A stretch of 64,000 bases of DNA, from NCBI RefSeq assembly GCF_024808665.1, contig NZ_JANUBZ010000008.1, positions 1 to 64,000 on the forward strand. Direction: 5' to 3'. The notes under the pieces are model-generated. The model did not search any database. It was given only the letters and a program-made list of their open reading frames with translations, and was not told where the DNA came from. Of this stretch, positions 29,544-39,766 are shown piece by piece (position 1 is the stretch's first letter; the number at the start of each line of letters is the position of its first letter). The stretch comes from Mucilaginibacter empetricola (GTDB lineage Bacteria; Bacteroidota; Bacteroidia; Sphingobacteriales; Sphingobacteriaceae). The translations under genes and the position numbers were made by a program.

Positions 29544-30779
29544 TTAAAATGCCTCAGCGACTATAGCTGTTTCGGTGGCTAAGTTTACACCGGCAAGCTG
29601 ATCGGCAAAGGCAACAAATGCTTTGTTGTTGGCTATCAGTTGTTGATTATCAATCAGGTTTTGAAGGTTGATTTTGCCTATAACGAACTTGTAACCTCCT
29701 GAATAATAACGCTCATGTATATGGGTGAAGTTCAGTGTTTCAACCAAAGCTTCATCCTCATAGCGCAAATAAATATTCAATTCAATATTATTGGTGAAGT
29801 TAAGGCTGGTGCGCTCCTTGGCTTTTTTGTATTCATAACCATAATCATAACGCAGTGCAGCAATATCTGATAATACAGCTGAACCGGTTGGATGACCACC
29901 GGCACCTTTACCAAAGAAGAATTGCTGATCGGCAAAAGCGGCTTGCACAATTACGCCATTGTATTCGTATTCTACGTTGTATAAAAACTCTTTGTCGTTA
30001 ACAAACTTAGGGAGTACAAATAGTGCTACGTGATTATCGTCCAACTCTTTAGCTACCGGAACCAGTTTTATTTTCAGGTTCTTTTCGCGTGCATATTGAA
30101 GATCATGAGCAGCAAGGTTTTGTATACCAAGGTTAAATACGTCATCCGGATTAACAATTACGCCGTAAGCATGCGCAGCAGCTATTACCAACTTGTATTT
30201 TGCGTCAAAACCACCCACATCACTGGTAGGGTCAGTTTCGGCAAAGCCCAGATCCTGCGCCTGTTTTAAAGCGGTATCGTAGTCCATGTTCTCGTTAAAT
30301 CCTTTTGACAGGATATAATTAGAGGACCCGTTAAAAATACCACTTATAGAGTGCAGCAGTTCGTTATCATAGTACTCTTCCAGGTTACGGATAATGGGAA
30401 TACTGCCGCAAACCGCACCTTCGTATAGTAACGATGTGCCATGTTTTTGTTGCAGGTCAATCAGCTCCTTTAAATGCAAGGCAATCATTTTTTTACTGGC
30501 CGATACTACATTTTTACCTGAACTTAACGCCCGTGATACAATTTCAAAAGCAGCTTCGGTATCATTTATCAGCTCAACAATAGTGTTTATTTCCGGGTTG
30601 TTCAGCAGTTCGTCGCGCTCAGTAGTGAATAGGTGAGCAGGAAGTGAACGCTGTTTGTGTGCATCTTTAATGGCGATCTTTTTGATCTCCAGGTTCAGAT
30701 GTTTGGTTTTAATAATGTCATACAAGCCCTGGCCAACTACGCCAAAGCCAAATAGTCCGATGTTTAATTTTTTACTCAT
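29544..30779 (-). CDS. hom: Homoserine dehydrogenase
   Basis: Reduces aspartate semialdehyde to homoserine with NAD(P)H. 411 residues, stand-alone (not fused to aspartokinase). Rossmann motif GLFGFGVVGQGLYD at the start, then EGAVCGSIPIIRNLEEYYDNELL and AETDPTSDVGGFDAKYKLVI, the conserved substrate region with the catalytic Lys. A C-terminal 70-residue tail may be a degenerate regulatory domain. Its ATG overlaps the metX stop by one base (TAATG), indicating coupling. It is third in the SAM-regulated operon. Confidence 0.95.
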   Translation of the reverse strand: MSKKLNIGLFGFGVVGQGLYDIIKTKHLNLEIKKIAIKDAHKQRSLPAHLFTTERDELLNNPEINTIVELINDTEAAFEIVSRALSSGKNVVSASKKMIALHLKELIDLQQKHGTSLLYEGAVCGSIPIIRNLEEYYDNELLHSISGIFNGSSNYILSKGFNENMDYDTALKQAQDLGFAETDPTSDVGGFDAKYKLVIAAAHAYGVIVNPDDVFNLGIQNLAAHDLQYAREKNLKIKLVPVAKELDDNHVALFVLPKFVNDKEFLYNVEYEYNGVIVQAAFADQQFFFGKGAGGHPTGSAVLSDIAALRYDYGYEYKKAKERTSLNFTNNIELNIYLRYEDEALVETLNFTHIHERYYSGGYKFVIGKINLQNLIDNQQLIANNKAFVAFADQLAGVNLATETAIVAEAF

Positions 30780-31834
30780 TATGCAGTGCGTTGCAATTCA
30801 ATAATTTTCCCCTTTACGTCTGTTTTAAAAAAGGAAGTGATGATATTTGTTAATACTCCGGTTTCAATTAAAAAACCATCGTGTCCGTAAAACGAATCTA
30901 ATTCGGCAAAAACCGATTTGGGGATATGCTGAAACAGGTATTGCTGCTCCTCAATAGGAAACAACACGTCCGACTTAATGCCAATAACCAGCGTGCGCGC
31001 TTTTATCAGGCTTAAGGCCTTTTCAACGCCATGTCTGTTGCGCCCCACATTGTGCGAATCCATCGTTTTTGACAGATACCAGTAGCTGTGGGCATTAAAC
31101 CTGTTTACCAGTTTTTCGCCCTGGTAATTTTGGTATGATGCGGCCTTGTAGTCGTCTAAATGATTGTCTTTTTCTTCCTGCTGGGTAACGCCGTAGGTTT
31201 TGTAGTTGCGGTAGGAGAGCAGGGCAATGCTGCGCGCGGCCTTTAAACCTTTTGCACCACCATTAGGAGCGTTAGCGTAAAAAGTACGATCAGCACTAAT
31301 CGCCAGGCGCTGCGACTCGTTAAAAGCTATTCCCCAGGGTGAATGGCGGGCGTTAGTAGCTATCAGTATCAGGTTTTTGATACGTTCGGGTTCCATAATG
31401 GCCCATTCAGCTGCTTGCTGACCACCTAAAGATCCACCCAGTAAAATGCCTATTTCTTTTATGCCCAAATGTTCGGACAGTAACTGATGTGCTTTTACAA
31501 TATCCCTGATAGTGAATTGCGGGAAAGCTAAATAGTAAGGATGCCCCGTAATCGGGTTGATGCTTAAAGGATTAGTAGTGCCATACGGCGAGCCCAATAT
31601 GTTGGCACAAACCACAAAGTGATCCTTTGGATTAAAATAATCGTTTTCGCCAAAAAAGCCTTTCCACCAGTCAAAAACATCCGAATTTGCGGTAAGGGCA
31701 TGACACACCCATACTACATTATCACGGTTTTTGTTTAATGTTCCGTAAGTGTTAAAGCCAATTTCGAGCTCAGTCAATTGCTTGCCTGATTCCAATTTGA
31801 AAGGCTTTTCGTATTTAAAAATCTCTGTACTCAT
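30779..31834 (-). CDS. metX: Homoserine O-acetyltransferase
   Basis: Alpha/beta-hydrolase that acetylates homoserine with acetyl-CoA. 351 residues. CHALTANSDVFDWW and the nucleophile elbow LLGGSLGGQQAAEWA (Ser about 140) are the MetX marks; the catalytic Asp (IKSDVLFPIEEQ) and His (GHDGFLIET) complete the triad. The group that acylates with succinate cannot be excluded from sequence, but downstream MetY uses O-acetylhomoserine. Second gene of the operon, 67 bp after metY with a hairpin between. Confidence 0.95.
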   Translation of the reverse strand: MSTEIFKYEKPFKLESGKQLTELEIGFNTYGTLNKNRDNVVWVCHALTANSDVFDWWKGFFGENDYFNPKDHFVVCANILGSPYGTTNPLSINPITGHPYYLAFPQFTIRDIVKAHQLLSEHLGIKEIGILLGGSLGGQQAAEWAIMEPERIKNLILIATNARHSPWGIAFNESQRLAISADRTFYANAPNGGAKGLKAARSIALLSYRNYKTYGVTQQEEKDNHLDDYKAASYQNYQGEKLVNRFNAHSYWYLSKTMDSHNVGRNRHGVEKALSLIKARTLVIGIKSDVLFPIEEQQYLFQHIPKSVFAELDSFYGHDGFLIETGVLTNIITSFFKTDVKGKIIELQRTA

Positions 31835-31901: not shown

Positions 31902-33251
<1,350 letters not shown>

Positions 33252-33274: not shown

Positions 33275-33308
33275 TCACAACAGAGATGATTAAGATCACC
33301 TTTTGTGA
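33275..33308 (-). promoter_or_regulatory. Stem-loop 2 in the metY leader
   Basis: TCACAA (33,275-33,280) pairs with TTGTGA (33,303-33,308), with an inner TGAT/ATCA pair. It sits between the first leader hairpin and metY. No T run follows. Confidence 0.45.
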
Positions 33309-33351: not shown

Positions 33352-33357
33352 TAAGGC

Positions 33358-33474
33358 TCAACAACAGCTGCGCATACACATGGCATTGTTAGCATAGCTA
33401 TAACAATACACAGGTGTAACAGTAGGTTGTGCCTTAAAAATGTTTTGCAGAATGTAATTAATCAGACTTTTCAT
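33358..33474 (-). CDS. 38-residue Cys/Met-rich leader peptide or microprotein
   Basis: Frame from ATG 33474 to TGA 33358. It starts MKSLINYILQNIFKAQPTVT and ends PVYCYSYANNAMCMRSCC, with four Cys and two Met in the last 15 residues. The start codon is 5 nt from the edge of the SAM riboswitch P1 helix, so the riboswitch controls this frame first and metY only at a distance. It precedes sulfur-assimilation genes, as expected of a cysteine/methionine-sensing leader. An independent metal-binding or redox microprotein cannot be excluded. I do not recognise a named family; coding status rests on the start, placement and composition. Confidence 0.55.
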   Translation of the reverse strand: MKSLINYILQNIFKAQPTVTPVYCYSYANNAMCMRSCC

Positions 33475-33479
33475 GGTTG

Positions 33480-33594
33480 TTAATTTATATTCCCCGGTGT
33501 TATTTGCCGGGACAGGAATTGGCACCTTCTTCAATATTGAAGGGTTGCCAGCGGGTCATTGAGCCTGATCTCTCGCCGCTTCTTTATAAATCAA
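33480..33594 (-). ncRNA. SAM-I (S-box) riboswitch
   Basis: On the minus strand the conserved core is clear: GAGAGATCAGGCTC, ATGACCCGC, GGCAACC, a TTCAATATTGAA hairpin (P3/P4 region) and GGTGCCAATTCC. P1 closes perfectly: TTGATTTATA (33,585-33,594) with TATAAATTAA (33,480-33,489), ten pairs including one G-U. SAM binding would lock P1 right beside the start of the short frame. There is no terminator directly behind it, so control is likely at translation, or through the leader frame and hairpins. It regulates the metY-metX-hom operon. Confidence 0.93.
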
Positions 33595-33643
33595 AACCTG
33601 TTTGGGAGGTAATGATCATTGGTATTGCTACCAAATTTTGTTT

Positions 33644-36026: not shown

Positions 36027-37388
36027 ATGACAAACAGCGAAACCATAGTTGCCCTTGCTACCCCGAATGGAATTGGGGCTTTAGGAATTATCCGCCTTTC
36101 GGGCCCGGATGCCGTCACCATTGCCAACAGCGTTTTTAAAGGCAGGGATTTAACCAAACAGGCATCGCACACCATTCACTTTGGTAATATTGTTGATGGC
36201 GATGTTATTTTGGACGAGGTACTGGTTTCCTTGTTCATAGCCCCGCGATCATACACCCGCGAGAATGTGGTGGAGATCAGTTGTCATGGTTCGGCTTATA
36301 TTATTGAGAGTATTATTAAGTTGCTGATAAAAAAAGGAGCACGATCTGCAAAAGCAGGTGAGTTTACGCTGAGGGCTTTTTTAAATGGTCAACTTGATCT
36401 TTCGCAAGCCGAAGCAGTGGCCGATTTAATTGCCTCAAACTCCAAAGCATCGCAACAGGTGGCATTGCGGCAATTGAGAGGTGGTTTTAGCAGTCAGCTG
36501 CAATCATTACGCGATCAATTGGTTCAATTTGCATCCCTAATTGAGCTGGAGCTTGATTTTGCCGAAGAAGATGTAGAATTTGCTAACCGCGATCAGCTTA
36601 AAAATTTAATTATACAAATAAACAAGGTTATTGTAAACCTGATCAATTCGTTTGAACTCGGCAATGCCATTAAACAAGGCGTAAATACCGTTATTGCCGG
36701 GCGTCCTAATGCCGGAAAATCAACCTTATTAAATGCCTTATTGAACGAAGAGCGGGCGATTGTGAGCCATATACCCGGTACTACGCGCGATACTATTGAA
36801 GAAGTACTGAACATTCATGGTATTAATTTCAGGCTAATTGATACTGCTGGCATCCGCGAGGCTACCGACGCTATTGAGCAAATAGGGGTACAACGTACTA
36901 TGGAAAAAATCAGCCAGTCGGCCCTGTTGATTTATGTTTATGATGCCTCACAAATAACGCTCGAAGAGCTTAACCAGGATATTGAAAGTTTACAGGGTCC
37001 CGGTATCGCCATGATGGTGGTGGCCAATAAAATTGACCTTCTAAACAACGAAGAAATAGCCGCGCTGCCGCATACCCAAAGGGAAGTGATCATATCGGCA
37101 AAAGAGAAATTCCATATCGACGACCTAAAGACCAAAATTTATCACGCCGCCATAAAAGACAAGTTAACCGGCGACGAAACCCTGGTAACCAATATCCGCC
37201 ACCTGGAAGCACTGCAAAAAACAGAAGAGGCATTATCAAGAGTGCTTGGCGGTATGGATACGGTAACATCCGATTTTTTATCAATGGATATTAAGCAGGC
37301 CTTACACTACTTAGGTGAGATTACGGGAGCGGTGACTACAGATGACTTGCTGGAGAATATTTTTAGTAAGTTTTGTATCGGCAAATAA
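36027..37388 (+). CDS. mnmE: tRNA modification GTPase MnmE
   Basis: GTPase that, with MnmG, modifies the wobble uridine of certain tRNAs (cmnm5U). 453 residues: N-terminal tetrahydrofolate-binding domain (ALATPNGIGALGIIRLSG), helical domain, and inserted G domain with GRPNAGKSTLLNALL (G1, about 227), DTAGIRE (G3) and NKID (G4). The C-terminal FCIGK carries the conserved Cys. A terminator follows 52 bp later, and the mobile element begins just beyond. Confidence 0.97.
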   Translation: MTNSETIVALATPNGIGALGIIRLSGPDAVTIANSVFKGRDLTKQASHTIHFGNIVDGDVILDEVLVSLFIAPRSYTRENVVEISCHGSAYIIESIIKLLIKKGARSAKAGEFTLRAFLNGQLDLSQAEAVADLIASNSKASQQVALRQLRGGFSSQLQSLRDQLVQFASLIELELDFAEEDVEFANRDQLKNLIIQINKVIVNLINSFELGNAIKQGVNTVIAGRPNAGKSTLLNALLNEERAIVSHIPGTTRDTIEEVLNIHGINFRLIDTAGIREATDAIEQIGVQRTMEKISQSALLIYVYDASQITLEELNQDIESLQGPGIAMMVVANKIDLLNNEEIAALPHTQREVIISAKEKFHIDDLKTKIYHAAIKDKLTGDETLVTNIRHLEALQKTEEALSRVLGGMDTVTSDFLSMDIKQALHYLGEITGAVTTDDLLENIFSKFCIGK

Positions 37389-37629: not shown

Positions 37630-38196
37630 ATGAGTTCCAACATAAAAGTTTCGAGGATATGCCAGCATTGCGGGCAGGAATTTGAAGCGAAAACCACCGT
37701 GACAAAATATTGCTCGCTTGTCTGTGCCCGGCGTGCTTACAAAGCAGCACTCAGAAACAACAAGATCGAAACGAGCAACAGAGAGGTGCAGGCAGTTAAA
37801 TCGATCGCGCATGAGCAGCTAAAAGGTAAAGAGTTCCTGACCGTACGTGACGCAGCCATATTACTAAACAGCTCCAGGCAAACCATTTACACGTTGATCA
37901 ACGAAGGCAAAATCAATGCATCCAACATCAAGCTGAAAAAGACACTGATCAAACGAACGGAAATTGATAAATTATTTTTACCAACCACCACGGTCCCAAT
38001 TGTACCCGATATTCAAAAAGAATTAAAAGTCGAGGCCTGTTATCATATGGCTGAGATACAGGAAAAGTTCGGTATTTCTGAAAAAGCATTGTTCGATTTG
38101 ATCAAGCGCAACAATATCCCCAAGTTGAAAATGGGCAAGTTCGCTTTTGTGCCGAAATCTAGGATCGACACTTTATTGAAGGCAAAAAATGAATAG
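37630..38196 (+). CDS. Zinc-finger protein with two excisionase-type HTH domains
   Basis: 188 residues. Four cysteines (CQHCGQEF ... KYCSLVC, about 11-33) form a likely zinc knuckle. Two MerR/excisionase-like helix-turn-helix units follow: [22 protein letters not shown] (about 74-95) and [21 protein letters not shown] (about 138-158). It is two bases before the integrase start, so it is probably its directionality factor or regulator. Proteins of this layout often precede integrases in Bacteroidota elements. Its exact role is not shown by sequence. Confidence 0.82.
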
Positions 38197-38198
38197 TT

Positions 38199-39314
38199 AT
38201 GGCAAGAGTGACGTTAAGGAAAAAGAAAATTACAAAAGACCGGTCATCATTGTACCTTGATTTTTATCCACCGATCCCGCATCCGGATAAAGGAACGCTA
38301 ACCAGGCGTGAATTTTTAGGGATCTATTTATTTGATAAGCCTAAATCCGAACTGGACAGGCGGCATAATAAAGAAACACAAAAGCTAGCTGAACATGTCC
38401 GTGCTACCAGGCAACTGGAGATCCAGAACCATGATTACGGCTTCCTTTCGGACGAGAAAAGAAATGGAAATTTTGTTGAGTTATTCCGGGGAGTAGCGGC
38501 ACAGAAAATGGGCAGCAACTCGGATAACTGGAATATGGCCCTTCGATATTTCATGGAGTTTGCCGGAACTTATTTACGATATGCCGATTTAAACGAAGTT
38601 TTTTGCGAAGACTATAAAGCCTACCTCCTCCGCGGCCCCGCGATCGGCCCCAGAAGCCAAAAGATCGCGGTCAATACGGCTGTAAGTTATTTTGGTAAAT
38701 TCAGAAACGTATTGCTCAAAGCCTATAAAAGCGGATTTACCAATAGAAATCTTTACGATCTGACGCCGGCGATCAAGGATGAAGAAACGCACCGCGAATT
38801 TCTTACCATCGAAGAATTCCAGAAATTGGCAGCAACACCTGTATCCAATGACTTAATTAAAAAGGCGGCCTTGTTTTCGGGACTAACCGGTTTACGTTTT
38901 TCTGACGTGCAGACACTCCGTTGGTCGGAAGTAAGAGGCGAAGAAGGTGGCTACTATATCCAGTTTCGCCAGGAAAAAACAGCAGGGGCAGAGGTCTTAC
39001 CTGTTTCCGACCTGGCCTGTTCCCTGCTGGGCGTTCGCGGCGAGGGCCCCGAGAAGGTTTTTAAGGGCCTGAAATATTCTGCTTTGAAAGTCTTTTTCCT
39101 GAAATGGCTGGCCAAAGCGGGCATCAGCAAAAACATAACATTCCACAGTTTTAGGCATACCTATGCCACCTTACAGCTGGCATCAGGTACTGACATCTTT
39201 ACGGTCTCAAAAATGCTGGGGCACCGACACGTCAAAACAACGCAAATCTATACCAAGGTGATCGACTCCAAGAAGCGGGAGGCCGCCAACCGGATCATCA
39301 TTAAGTTAGATTAG
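38199..39314 (+). CDS. Tyrosine recombinase (element integrase)
   Basis: 371 residues. N-terminal Arm-type and SAM-like core-binding domains, then the catalytic domain with Arg233 (TGLRFSD), Lys260, His316 and Arg319 (HSFRH), His342 (LGHRH) and Tyr351 (TQIYTKV), a full active-site set, so it should be active. It is of the Bacteroidota ICE/transposon integrase type and would integrate or excise the element carrying it. The last 14 bases overlap the end of the convergent HTH gene. Confidence 0.94.
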   Translation: MARVTLRKKKITKDRSSLYLDFYPPIPHPDKGTLTRREFLGIYLFDKPKSELDRRHNKETQKLAEHVRATRQLEIQNHDYGFLSDEKRNGNFVELFRGVAAQKMGSNSDNWNMALRYFMEFAGTYLRYADLNEVFCEDYKAYLLRGPAIGPRSQKIAVNTAVSYFGKFRNVLLKAYKSGFTNRNLYDLTPAIKDEETHREFLTIEEFQKLAATPVSNDLIKKAALFSGLTGLRFSDVQTLRWSEVRGEEGGYYIQFRQEKTAGAEVLPVSDLACSLLGVRGEGPEKVFKGLKYSALKVFFLKWLAKAGISKNITFHSFRHTYATLQLASGTDIFTVSKMLGHRHVKTTQIYTKVIDSKKREAANRIIIKLD

Positions 39315-39672
39315 ACCGTACGGCTCTTCTTTTAGGATAACGGGTATTGGTCCTGGTATAAATATCCCTGGCGGTCAGGGCAATATCCGCATTGCTGGGA
39401 TGCCTGGCACTTTTGATCCATTCGACCAGCGCCTTTTTATCGAAATATAGCCTCCTGCCCGGCTTCAGCGCTGGAATTTCCCCACGGCAAACTTTGGTGT
39501 AGATCGTCGACACCGACAAATTCAAAAAAGCGGCAGCCTGGGTCACATCGAGTAAGTCGCTTGGATCCTCCTCCCGTTGCTGCCCGTTTTGCAGGATCTT
39601 TTCCATTTGCAATACAATGGACAGGATCTTTTCCACGGCTTGCGGTAATTGTTCAAATGTTAACTGCTCCAT
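39301..39672 (-). CDS. Excisionase-family HTH protein
   Basis: 123 residues from ATG 39672 (MEQLTFEQLP); a TTG 39708 start adds 12 residues and is less likely. The HTH_17 excisionase domain is LLDVTQAAAFLNLSVSTIYTKVCRGEIPALKPGRRLYFDKKALVEW (about 38-85; key residues V, A, L, Y, R, W). An amphipathic helix precedes it. Such proteins bend DNA to allow integrase to cut the element out. It runs against the integrase gene and overlaps its 3' end by 14 bp, so the two transcripts are mutually antisense. Confidence 0.85.
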   Translation of the reverse strand: MEQLTFEQLPQAVEKILSIVLQMEKILQNGQQREEDPSDLLDVTQAAAFLNLSVSTIYTKVCRGEIPALKPGRRLYFDKKALVEWIKSARHPSNADIALTARDIYTRTNTRYPKRRAVRSNLT

Positions 39673-39766
39673 CGCATTCCTTTTTGCAAAATTGGCTCCC
39701 CCGGTCAAATCCGCTTGACAATCACCTGAGGATAGCCGGTAAAATAAAATTATTTTAATTGCTGAA

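Follow-up and report, generated by a model that had tools for sequence, protein, structure and literature searches.

The leader of Salmonella mgtA unites a Mg2+ riboswitch with MgtL, a leader peptide read through its proline codons, and MgtL overlaps the sensor. For mycobacteria, Canestrari is said to have described in 2020 a Cys-responsive attenuation by leaderless short open reading frames. Short frames with runs of Cys codons near their stop codon precede sulphur genes in the Actinobacteria, where they were described for mycobacterial cys operons; in the accessible part of that report conserved terminators are absent and Rho is suspected (PMC1262725). The uORFC-8-2 motif, found before cysS in Rhodobacterales, carries tandem Cys codons in a first stem which is followed by a U-run terminator, and stalling on these codons was proposed to permit read-through (PMC8632094). 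In Mycobacterium tuberculosis, a B12 riboswitch controls a translated uORF in front of ppe2, and translation of this uORF governs the downstream gene (PMC11260477). Upstream of amino-acid operons of Flavobacterium psychrophilum, signs of leader peptide attenuation were noted (PMC9723704). Those SAM-I riboswitches which bury a ribosome binding site have it in the 3' side of helix P1 (Barrick and Breaker, 2007; PMC2258182).

The window, a stretch of 64 000 nucleotides from Mucilaginibacter empetricola, contains a leader upstream of metY, the features of which are listed in Table 1. The core and the four-helix fold of a SAM-I aptamer are present (RF00162, 80.8 versus 44.4 bits). As claimed in a preliminary description made from the nucleotide sequence alone, this aptamer is located directly before a frame of 38 codons and not before metY, which starts at position 33212, 145 nt past the stop codon of the short frame. 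The gap between aptamer and ATG had been given as 5 nt; the close spacing holds, while the Rfam boundary gives 7 nt and an extension of P1 pairs through this spacer. The predicted peptide, MKSLINYILQNIFKAQPTVTPVYCYSYANNAMCMRSCC, has 38 residues, ends with YCYSYANNAMCMRSCC directly before the stop codon and does not match any Pfam family. Three Cys are found among its last 13 residues and four among the last 16, fewer than in most of the related leaders described below. It had been called Cys/Met-rich, of which the Cys part applies; Met is only a minor partner, the last four codons being mostly Cys in the genus. Behind the leader follow metY, a metX-like gene and the gene for homoserine dehydrogenase. 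The closest named metY, from a Mucilaginibacter MAG, is 91% identical to that of the window. At the search cut-off, the genome contains three SAM-I aptamers, which precede the metY leader, a tRNA-Cys gene and a metH-like gene (judged from its translation); no Cys-rich frame was found behind the latter two. Elsewhere in the window, the region 37630-39708 behind mnmE (36027-37388) contains two HTH-like frames and a tyrosine recombinase-like frame (38199-39314), as seen from translations only, and is possibly an integrated element.

Table 1. Features of the metY leader and the genes behind it (positions in the window).
Feature	Position	Strand	Evidence
SAM-I riboswitch aptamer (RF00162)	33482..33592	-	cmscan 80.8 bits, E 2e-17, model 1-108 full length
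P1 extension, 3' strand (the 7-nt spacer between aptamer and leader start)	33475..33481	-	fold, genus covariation
P1 extension, 5' strand	33593..33598	-	fold, genus covariation
Leader peptide frame, 38 codons plus stop, ATG at 33474	33358..33474	-	start, Cys tail and stop kept in relatives
Terminal codons M-C-M-R-S-C-C, candidate stall codons	33361..33381	-	codon positions; position-wise codon conservation in the genus
Hairpin A, with terminal Cys/Met codons and stop codon within the 3' arm	33352..33436	-	-31.4 kcal/mol, z -3.0
Hairpin H2 (ACACGU...ACGUGU), starting 6 nt past the stop codon	33313..33351	-	fold; post-stop hairpins in the genus
Hairpin H3	33275..33308	-	fold only
metY, O-acetylhomoserine sulfhydrylase	31902..33212	-	NCBIfam TIGR01326, 663.6 bits (cut-off 495.1); PF01053
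metX-like homoserine O-acetyltransferase	30779..31834	-	best NCBIfam matches are MetX, below their cut-offs
Homoserine dehydrogenase (hom)	29544..30779	-	PF00742, PF03447; NF004976 over cut-off

For comparison, 218 metY loci were collected. They comprise 80 named loci (L034-L113; Mucilaginibacter, Pedobacter, Daejeonella, Sphingobacterium, Hymenobacter, Chryseolinea, Cyclobacteriaceae and others), 30 taken from the window's genus (149 genomes, metY at cut-off in 134), another 28 taken from the class (247 genomes, metY at cut-off in 61), and 80 fetched stretches, 20 at class level and 60 from the genus. This covers the class-level metY matches except for the 11 of 61 with the lowest scores, and the genus matches except for 41 of 134. 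Two loci (L071, L105) are cut at a contig end. Since some genomes occur twice among the 218 loci, counts were made on distinct peptides. As a comparison set we used 31 of the 32 SAM-I loci L002-L033 which had not been picked by metY (one was missed by the aptamer pattern); judged from translations, the genes behind them include those for cysteine desulfurase, peroxiredoxin and outer membrane proteins.

The aptamer core was found by pattern within 900 nt of metY in 191 of the 218 loci, and two loci missed by the pattern (L174, L182) are positive by Rfam. All 191 have an ATG frame of at least eight codons which starts 27-57 nt past the GGTGC[CT]A of the core. Some such frame also occurs in 1671 of 3480 shuffled leaders, about half of them, so that the evidential weight rests on the Cys tail and not on the frame. 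At least four Cys among the last 13 residues are present in 150 of 174 distinct metY leaders, compared with 2 of 3480 dinucleotide shuffles and none of the 31 other SAM-I loci; the values for at least three Cys are 164 of 174, 19 of 3480 and 0 of 31. One identical procedure was used for the three sets, and the shuffles keep no account of shared ancestry.

Within the genus, 81 distinct tails have Cys at the last codon (75 tails) and at codons -2 (78), -3 (71) and -4 (66). Both TGT and TGC are common, with an entropy of about 1 bit at the third codon positions and of 0 to 0.6 at the second. Comparison of closely similar pairs of genus leaders over the ten-codon tail gives 179 replacement against 102 silent changes, and therefore a clear constraint at the protein level is confined to the Cys run. 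Between lineages, it is mainly the C-terminal Cys run that is kept; the N-terminal parts, the length (19 to more than 50 residues) and the number of Cys vary. As expected for an attenuator, the frame is short and conserved and has a run of codons for a product of the pathway. An alignment of Sphingobacteriaceae, suggested in the preliminary description as a check for a real peptide and here extended beyond the family, bears the peptide out: most relatives share the start position, the Cys codons and the stop, with synonymous TGT/TGC changes. Taken together, the comparison makes it almost certain that the leader is real and under selection for Cys.

The Cys sensor appears dispensable, as a full Cys run is lacking in several relatives. 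Three loci of one genus (L158, L160, L162) have kept the aptamer and an ATG frame at the usual place and are devoid of the Cys run, two Sphingobacterium leaders (L090, L107) end with ...TRMR and have a single Cys in the tail, and L153 has two. One Pedobacter locus (L061) has neither aptamer nor Cys frame. A class-wide pattern for Met-Cys4-stop gave matches in seven of 149 genomes. Two of them (L253, L258) represent metY leaders, while L252 and L254-L257 are probably matches by chance.

Rfam boundaries are available for 36 loci, and in 28 of these the ATG follows the aptamer at a distance of 6-11 nt (one of the 36, L170, was mispicked). In the window, positions 33598-33593 pair with 33475-33481, up to the base before the ATG, and six of the seven spacer bases are paired. 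This pairing covaries in the genus. Of 48 distinct flank pairs, 40 allow the base two before the ATG to pair with the 5' flank (G-C 27, A-U 9, U-A 4; 8 unpaired), while shuffles have a mean of 27.8 paired and none of 5000 reach 40. Over the four pairs of the extension, 153 of 192 cells are paired, compared with at most 150 of 192 in 2000 shuffles. The analysis used 115 of 116 genus loci, and its statistics ignore kinship. P1 extensions are modestly longer at metY than at other SAM-I loci (3.95 vs 2.91 bp; n = 37 and 32; p 0.023). P1 formation, which links SAM-I aptamers to their expression platform, is thus tied here to the leader ATG, which the covarying extension reaches. Bacteroidota rarely use Shine-Dalgarno sequences and favour A/U-rich starts; P1 closing over the A/U-rich stretch should for this reason block initiation. 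That SAM, the predicted ligand, gates the start of the leader is very probable and is supported structurally. The kept start, Cys codons and stop, together with compensatory changes in the helix that reaches the start, lend support to the proposal in the preliminary description that a SAM sensor gates a Cys-sensing leader.

The leader of the window as a whole folds better than shuffled sequences (z -4.0; none of 200 shuffles as good). In the genus, the Cys codons show stronger pairing than shuffles with the preceding part of the frame (n = 102, p 2e-10), and a smaller excess with the part behind the stop codon (n = 101, p 4.5e-4). A post-stop hairpin H2 of at least 5 bp is present in 93 of 101 distinct genus leaders and starts 4-8 nt past the stop in 76 of the 93. 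It shows paired exchanges, for example CACGU/ACGUG to CACGC/GCGUG, and its free energy is only moderately below that of shuffles (mean z -1.65; 36 of 102 below -2). Randomization of synonymous TGT/TGC codons in the genus had the expected sign in long windows and the opposite one in short windows, which lack the upstream part and in which the natural folds were if anything less stable than the randomized ones. As RNAalifold did not return any structure for a MAFFT alignment of 103 genus tails, structures in the genus were judged from per-sequence folds and pair counts.

Other lineages form other helices. In Cytophagales-type leaders (our own grouping), a CAGCAACA-like stretch further downstream is the partner of the Cys codons (n = 17, p 0.008); upstream pairing has p 0.023. 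Duplex tests gave no signal of Cys-codon pairing for Pedobacter, in which a local hairpin is indicated by the synonymous-codon test (n = 19, p 0.001). The eight Hymenobacter leaders pair their Cys codons with upstream sequence less well than shuffles do (p 0.016) and with downstream sequence no better; the synonymous-codon test is mixed for them. Regulatory codons within a helix arm, as typical for an attenuator, are thus found in the window, the genus and the Cytophagales-type leaders and not in Hymenobacter. The helix shapes differ by lineage, and the Cys codons stay and form one helix arm in most groups; the helices presumably alternate. Separately, a hairpin behind the leader with a recurring YURCCNNGUGACRGGY was noticed by eye in eight loci (L064, L067, L070, L072, L073, L083, L088, L098) and in L149, for which Rfam at gathering cut-offs reports only SAM-I. 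Its conserved loop letters suggest more than a plain hairpin.

A U-tract terminator between leader and gene, as is usual in an attenuator, was not found in the window. Terminator-like sites occur in 32 of 101 aptamer loci and are mostly weak or implausible; the 25 loci scanned as 'no aptamer' include L174 and L182, which have the aptamer by Rfam. Two distant relatives have a U-tract terminator with the Cys codons as 5' arm, namely a Flavobacteriales MAG (L099, aptamer by pattern) and L171 (aptamer by Rfam). In L176, a weaker terminator is built on Cys codons. Direct occlusion of the metY ribosome binding site was considered and dropped, since masking of the Cys codons hardly shifts the openness of the metY start: it is mostly unpaired and almost unchanged by masking in five groups (genus, 0.69 vs 0.67 unpaired). 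As the start is accessible in any case and almost insensitive to the masking, control is more likely to be exerted on transcription. Rho sites are often rich in C and poor in G. The post-leader RNA has this composition, with C/G ratios of 1.66-1.92 in five groups; the ratio is 1.03 in the 120 nt behind the 31 other SAM-I aptamers, a region which is not strictly matched as it can hold coding sequence. The C-rich RNA is compatible with Rho, which we tentatively consider as a candidate for the window's lineage.

Relatives which lack the aptamer have leaders of a more classical kind, and the mechanism is clearest in them. Among the 48 class-level loci (L144-L191), 27 are positive for SAM-I by Rfam, and 21 of the 27 leaders have at least three Cys in their best 12-codon window. 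Of the 21 aptamer-less loci, 12 have a candidate leader (at least two Cys and at least four Cys plus Met in 12 codons), two of which (L184, L187) were regarded as spurious. Of 12 aptamer-less loci examined for terminators, eight hold 14 units of leader plus terminator, arranged as tandem Met and Cys leaders upstream of metY in six loci (L167, L168, L173, L178, L190, L191) and as single units in two (L172, L179). These leaders read Met and Cys together, e.g. MKNNNKMCCMMMMCMCAPP. An antiterminator (z below -1.5) which is complementary to the 5' side of the terminator and located 3-15 nt past the last Cys/Met codon was detected in nine of the 14 units; the remaining five lack a significant one. 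The nine have the classic arrangement, by which a stall on the codons would switch the gene on.

From these data we propose a two-input leader on the metY-metX-hom mRNA, in which the SAM-I aptamer is followed by a Cys-codon leader peptide. With SAM bound, P1 and its extension would hold the A/U-rich bases before the leader ATG, so that ribosomes could not start the leader; with little SAM, P1 would open and translation of the leader could begin. When Cys-tRNA is ample, the ribosome would run through the leader and leave, while scarce Cys-tRNA would make it stall on the Cys run. The stalled ribosome would keep the Cys-codon helix open and, if halted at the very end of the frame, would mask the 5' arm of H2 as well; transcription would continue into metY. 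A leader which is untranslated or quickly released would fold and give low metY expression, so that high expression of metY would require low SAM together with a shortage of Cys-tRNA. Transcription would be stopped by Rho or an unusual terminator in the window's lineage, and by the terminator containing the Cys codons in the two distant relatives. We infer that the frame is translated, as well as the sign of both responses and the step at which transcription stops. Cys sensing by ribosome stalling on the leader is highly probable. The preliminary description had proposed sensing of both Cys- and Met-tRNA charging, and its proposal ended at the stalled ribosome. The Cys part agrees with our results; for Met there is little sign in the majority of aptamer-preceded leaders, which have a mean of about 1.5 Met codons in the best 12-codon window. 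The explanation as a whole, with SAM gating the leader and Cys-tRNA stalling opening metY-metX-hom, seems reasonably probable.

The sign of the Cys response might be the opposite. Completion of the leader could be needed for metY expression, for instance by keeping Rho off, so that Cys shortage would stall the ribosome and shut metY; sulphide would then go to cysteine first, and homocysteine would be made only when SAM is low and Cys ample. The lack of a U-tract terminator in the window and the C-rich, G-poor RNA behind the leader would suit such a scheme, and translation of the uORF in the ppe2 leader is indeed essential for the downstream gene (PMC11260477). However, the aptamer-less loci and two aptamer-bearing relatives (L099, L171) have terminator/antiterminator layouts from which expression under shortage is predicted, and the Cys run abuts the stop codon, so that a ribosome stalled there exposes little untranslated leader. 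We regard the opposite sign as unlikely and consider that starvation probably turns metY on.

The number of Met codons bears on the role of the aptamer. In the best 12-codon window, a mean of 3.75 Met codons is found in leaders without an aptamer and of 1.48 in those behind one (n = 12 and 23; Mann-Whitney p 0.0004, kinship ignored). Four of the 27 aptamer loci (L158, L160, L162, L185), which have fewer than two Cys in these 12 codons, were left out of this comparison. Two aptamer loci run against the trend, L185 with five Met and one Cys in the 12 codons and L170 with four Met. We read this difference as a division of labour, with the aptamer reading SAM and the peptide then mainly Cys. Alternatively, only the Cys attenuator might matter, the aptamer being a relic or acting by another route; Cys/Met leaders without any aptamer do occur in relatives, as do Cys leaders without the aptamer pattern before other genes of the genus. 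Yet the aptamers match the Rfam model at full length and above the gathering score, their distance from the ATG is conserved, their P1 extension covaries, and the leaders behind them have on average fewer Met codons, all of which makes this alternative very improbable.

The frame might also encode a functional small Cys-rich protein, e.g. for metal or thiol binding, for which SAM control would be no more than co-regulation. In the tail, Cys is indeed conserved as an amino acid, but little except this C-terminal run is kept, the frame of the window has no Pfam match, and in six aptamer-less loci there are two leaders in tandem, each with its own terminator; a protein function is hardly credible. 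That the riboswitch acts directly on metY, with the frame carried along and its Cys codons preserved for RNA structure alone, is likewise hardly credible: the Cys codons do sit in helices, but their third positions vary between T and C while the second hardly vary, pairing partners and shapes change between lineages while the codons stay, and the metY start is 145 nt away and mostly unpaired.

In the window's own genome, a further SAM-I aptamer is separated by 51 nt from a tRNA-Cys(GCA) gene behind it (L002 1501-1805, corresponding to C3:148116-148420). The aptamer-tRNA stretch was searched in 60 genus genomes, and the 30 best-matching loci are biased towards such pairs. In 27 of these 30 (relatives L302-L330), tRNA-Cys is preceded on its own strand by a SAM-like core: immediately in 18 (81-90 nt), at about 290 nt in two, and with a peroxiredoxin-like (six) or a cysteine-desulfurase-like gene (one) in between. 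SAM-I was confirmed by Rfam in all 15 of the 27 that were submitted; L331 has no SAM-I either by pattern or by Rfam. Where aptamer and tRNA are directly linked, many loci share a stretch like ATAAGTGATT...TTTTT between the two, a possible competitor of P1. At least one more tRNA-Cys gene is present in the genome (C3:138070-138142, other strand). If SAM controls tRNA-Cys, the two inputs of the metY leader are coupled, and SAM could set the amount of the tRNA-Cys which that leader measures.

Cys-run leaders were also seen before other genes. On contig C9 of the same genome (L287 451-537), the leader MKTFNHNLHLNSASNCYPISMYCCMRCC stands 62 nt before an operon of Porin_O_P and PstS/C/A/B-like genes; the genome-wide search gave no SAM-I aptamer there, and no such leader was found in 13 relatives with a related binding protein, for which the 1500-nt flanks may miss it. 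The leader is a hint that this 'phosphate-type' Pst-like transporter may carry a sulphur compound. Seven of nine second-site genus loci fetched have Cys-run leaders without the aptamer pattern, which end with CMCCCC or CCMCCCC. As judged by eye, these leaders (L260, L262, L266, L267; L261, L263, L264) precede a peroxiredoxin-like protein of about 213-221 residues or SusC/TonB-like receptors.

If the proposal holds, the metY leader would be a natural compact circuit made of two known RNA devices, by which sulphur status is read at two points of one pathway. It would also offer a comparative case in which one sensor, the aptamer, seems to replace another, the Met codons. Many short leader peptides are predicted, and Cys leaders may give clues to the function of the genes behind them. 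It is conceivable, and we put it forward with reserve, that an amino-acid leader serving as the expression platform of a riboswitch is a natural two-input gate widespread in Bacteroidota, that lineages without the aptamer read Met and Cys by tandem leaders instead, and that in the genus the loop closes via the SAM-I aptamer before tRNA-Cys.

Among described systems, the mgtA leader likewise combines an RNA that senses an ion or metabolite with a codon-specific leader peptide, but MgtL reads proline, which is not the product of its own pathway. The leaderless mycobacterial attenuators share the Cys run near the stop and differ in that the frame described here stands behind a 111-nt aptamer. The Actinobacterial Cys leaders also have this run and also precede sulphur genes; here, in contrast, the phylum is Bacteroidota and a SAM aptamer precedes the frame, while the accessible part of that report mentions no riboswitch (PMC1262725). 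Compared with uORFC-8-2, which has no riboswitch, the metY leader belongs to another phylum and another gene. The ppe2 leader resembles it in having a riboswitch before a uORF, so that a riboswitch-controlled translated uORF is not unprecedented; its ligand is B12, and according to the accessible part of the report the uORF acts mainly by termination-reinitiation and not by amino-acid sensing (PMC11260477). For the Flavobacterium leaders, a combination with a SAM aptamer is not mentioned in the accessible text, and the supplements may list such leaders (PMC9723704). A search of the open literature, covering titles and the openings of abstracts and not subscription journals or supplements, gave no report of a SAM riboswitch before a Cys leader in Bacteroidota, nor did the literature searched describe a mode of action for SAM-I aptamers before metY in this phylum. 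Like known SAM-I riboswitches, the window has a full aptamer above the gathering score with the 3' side of P1 over a translation start, but this start is that of a leader peptide and not that of the enzyme gene, and no terminator/antiterminator platform was found in the window. Both parts of the metY leader are of known kinds, and their combination is apparently new.
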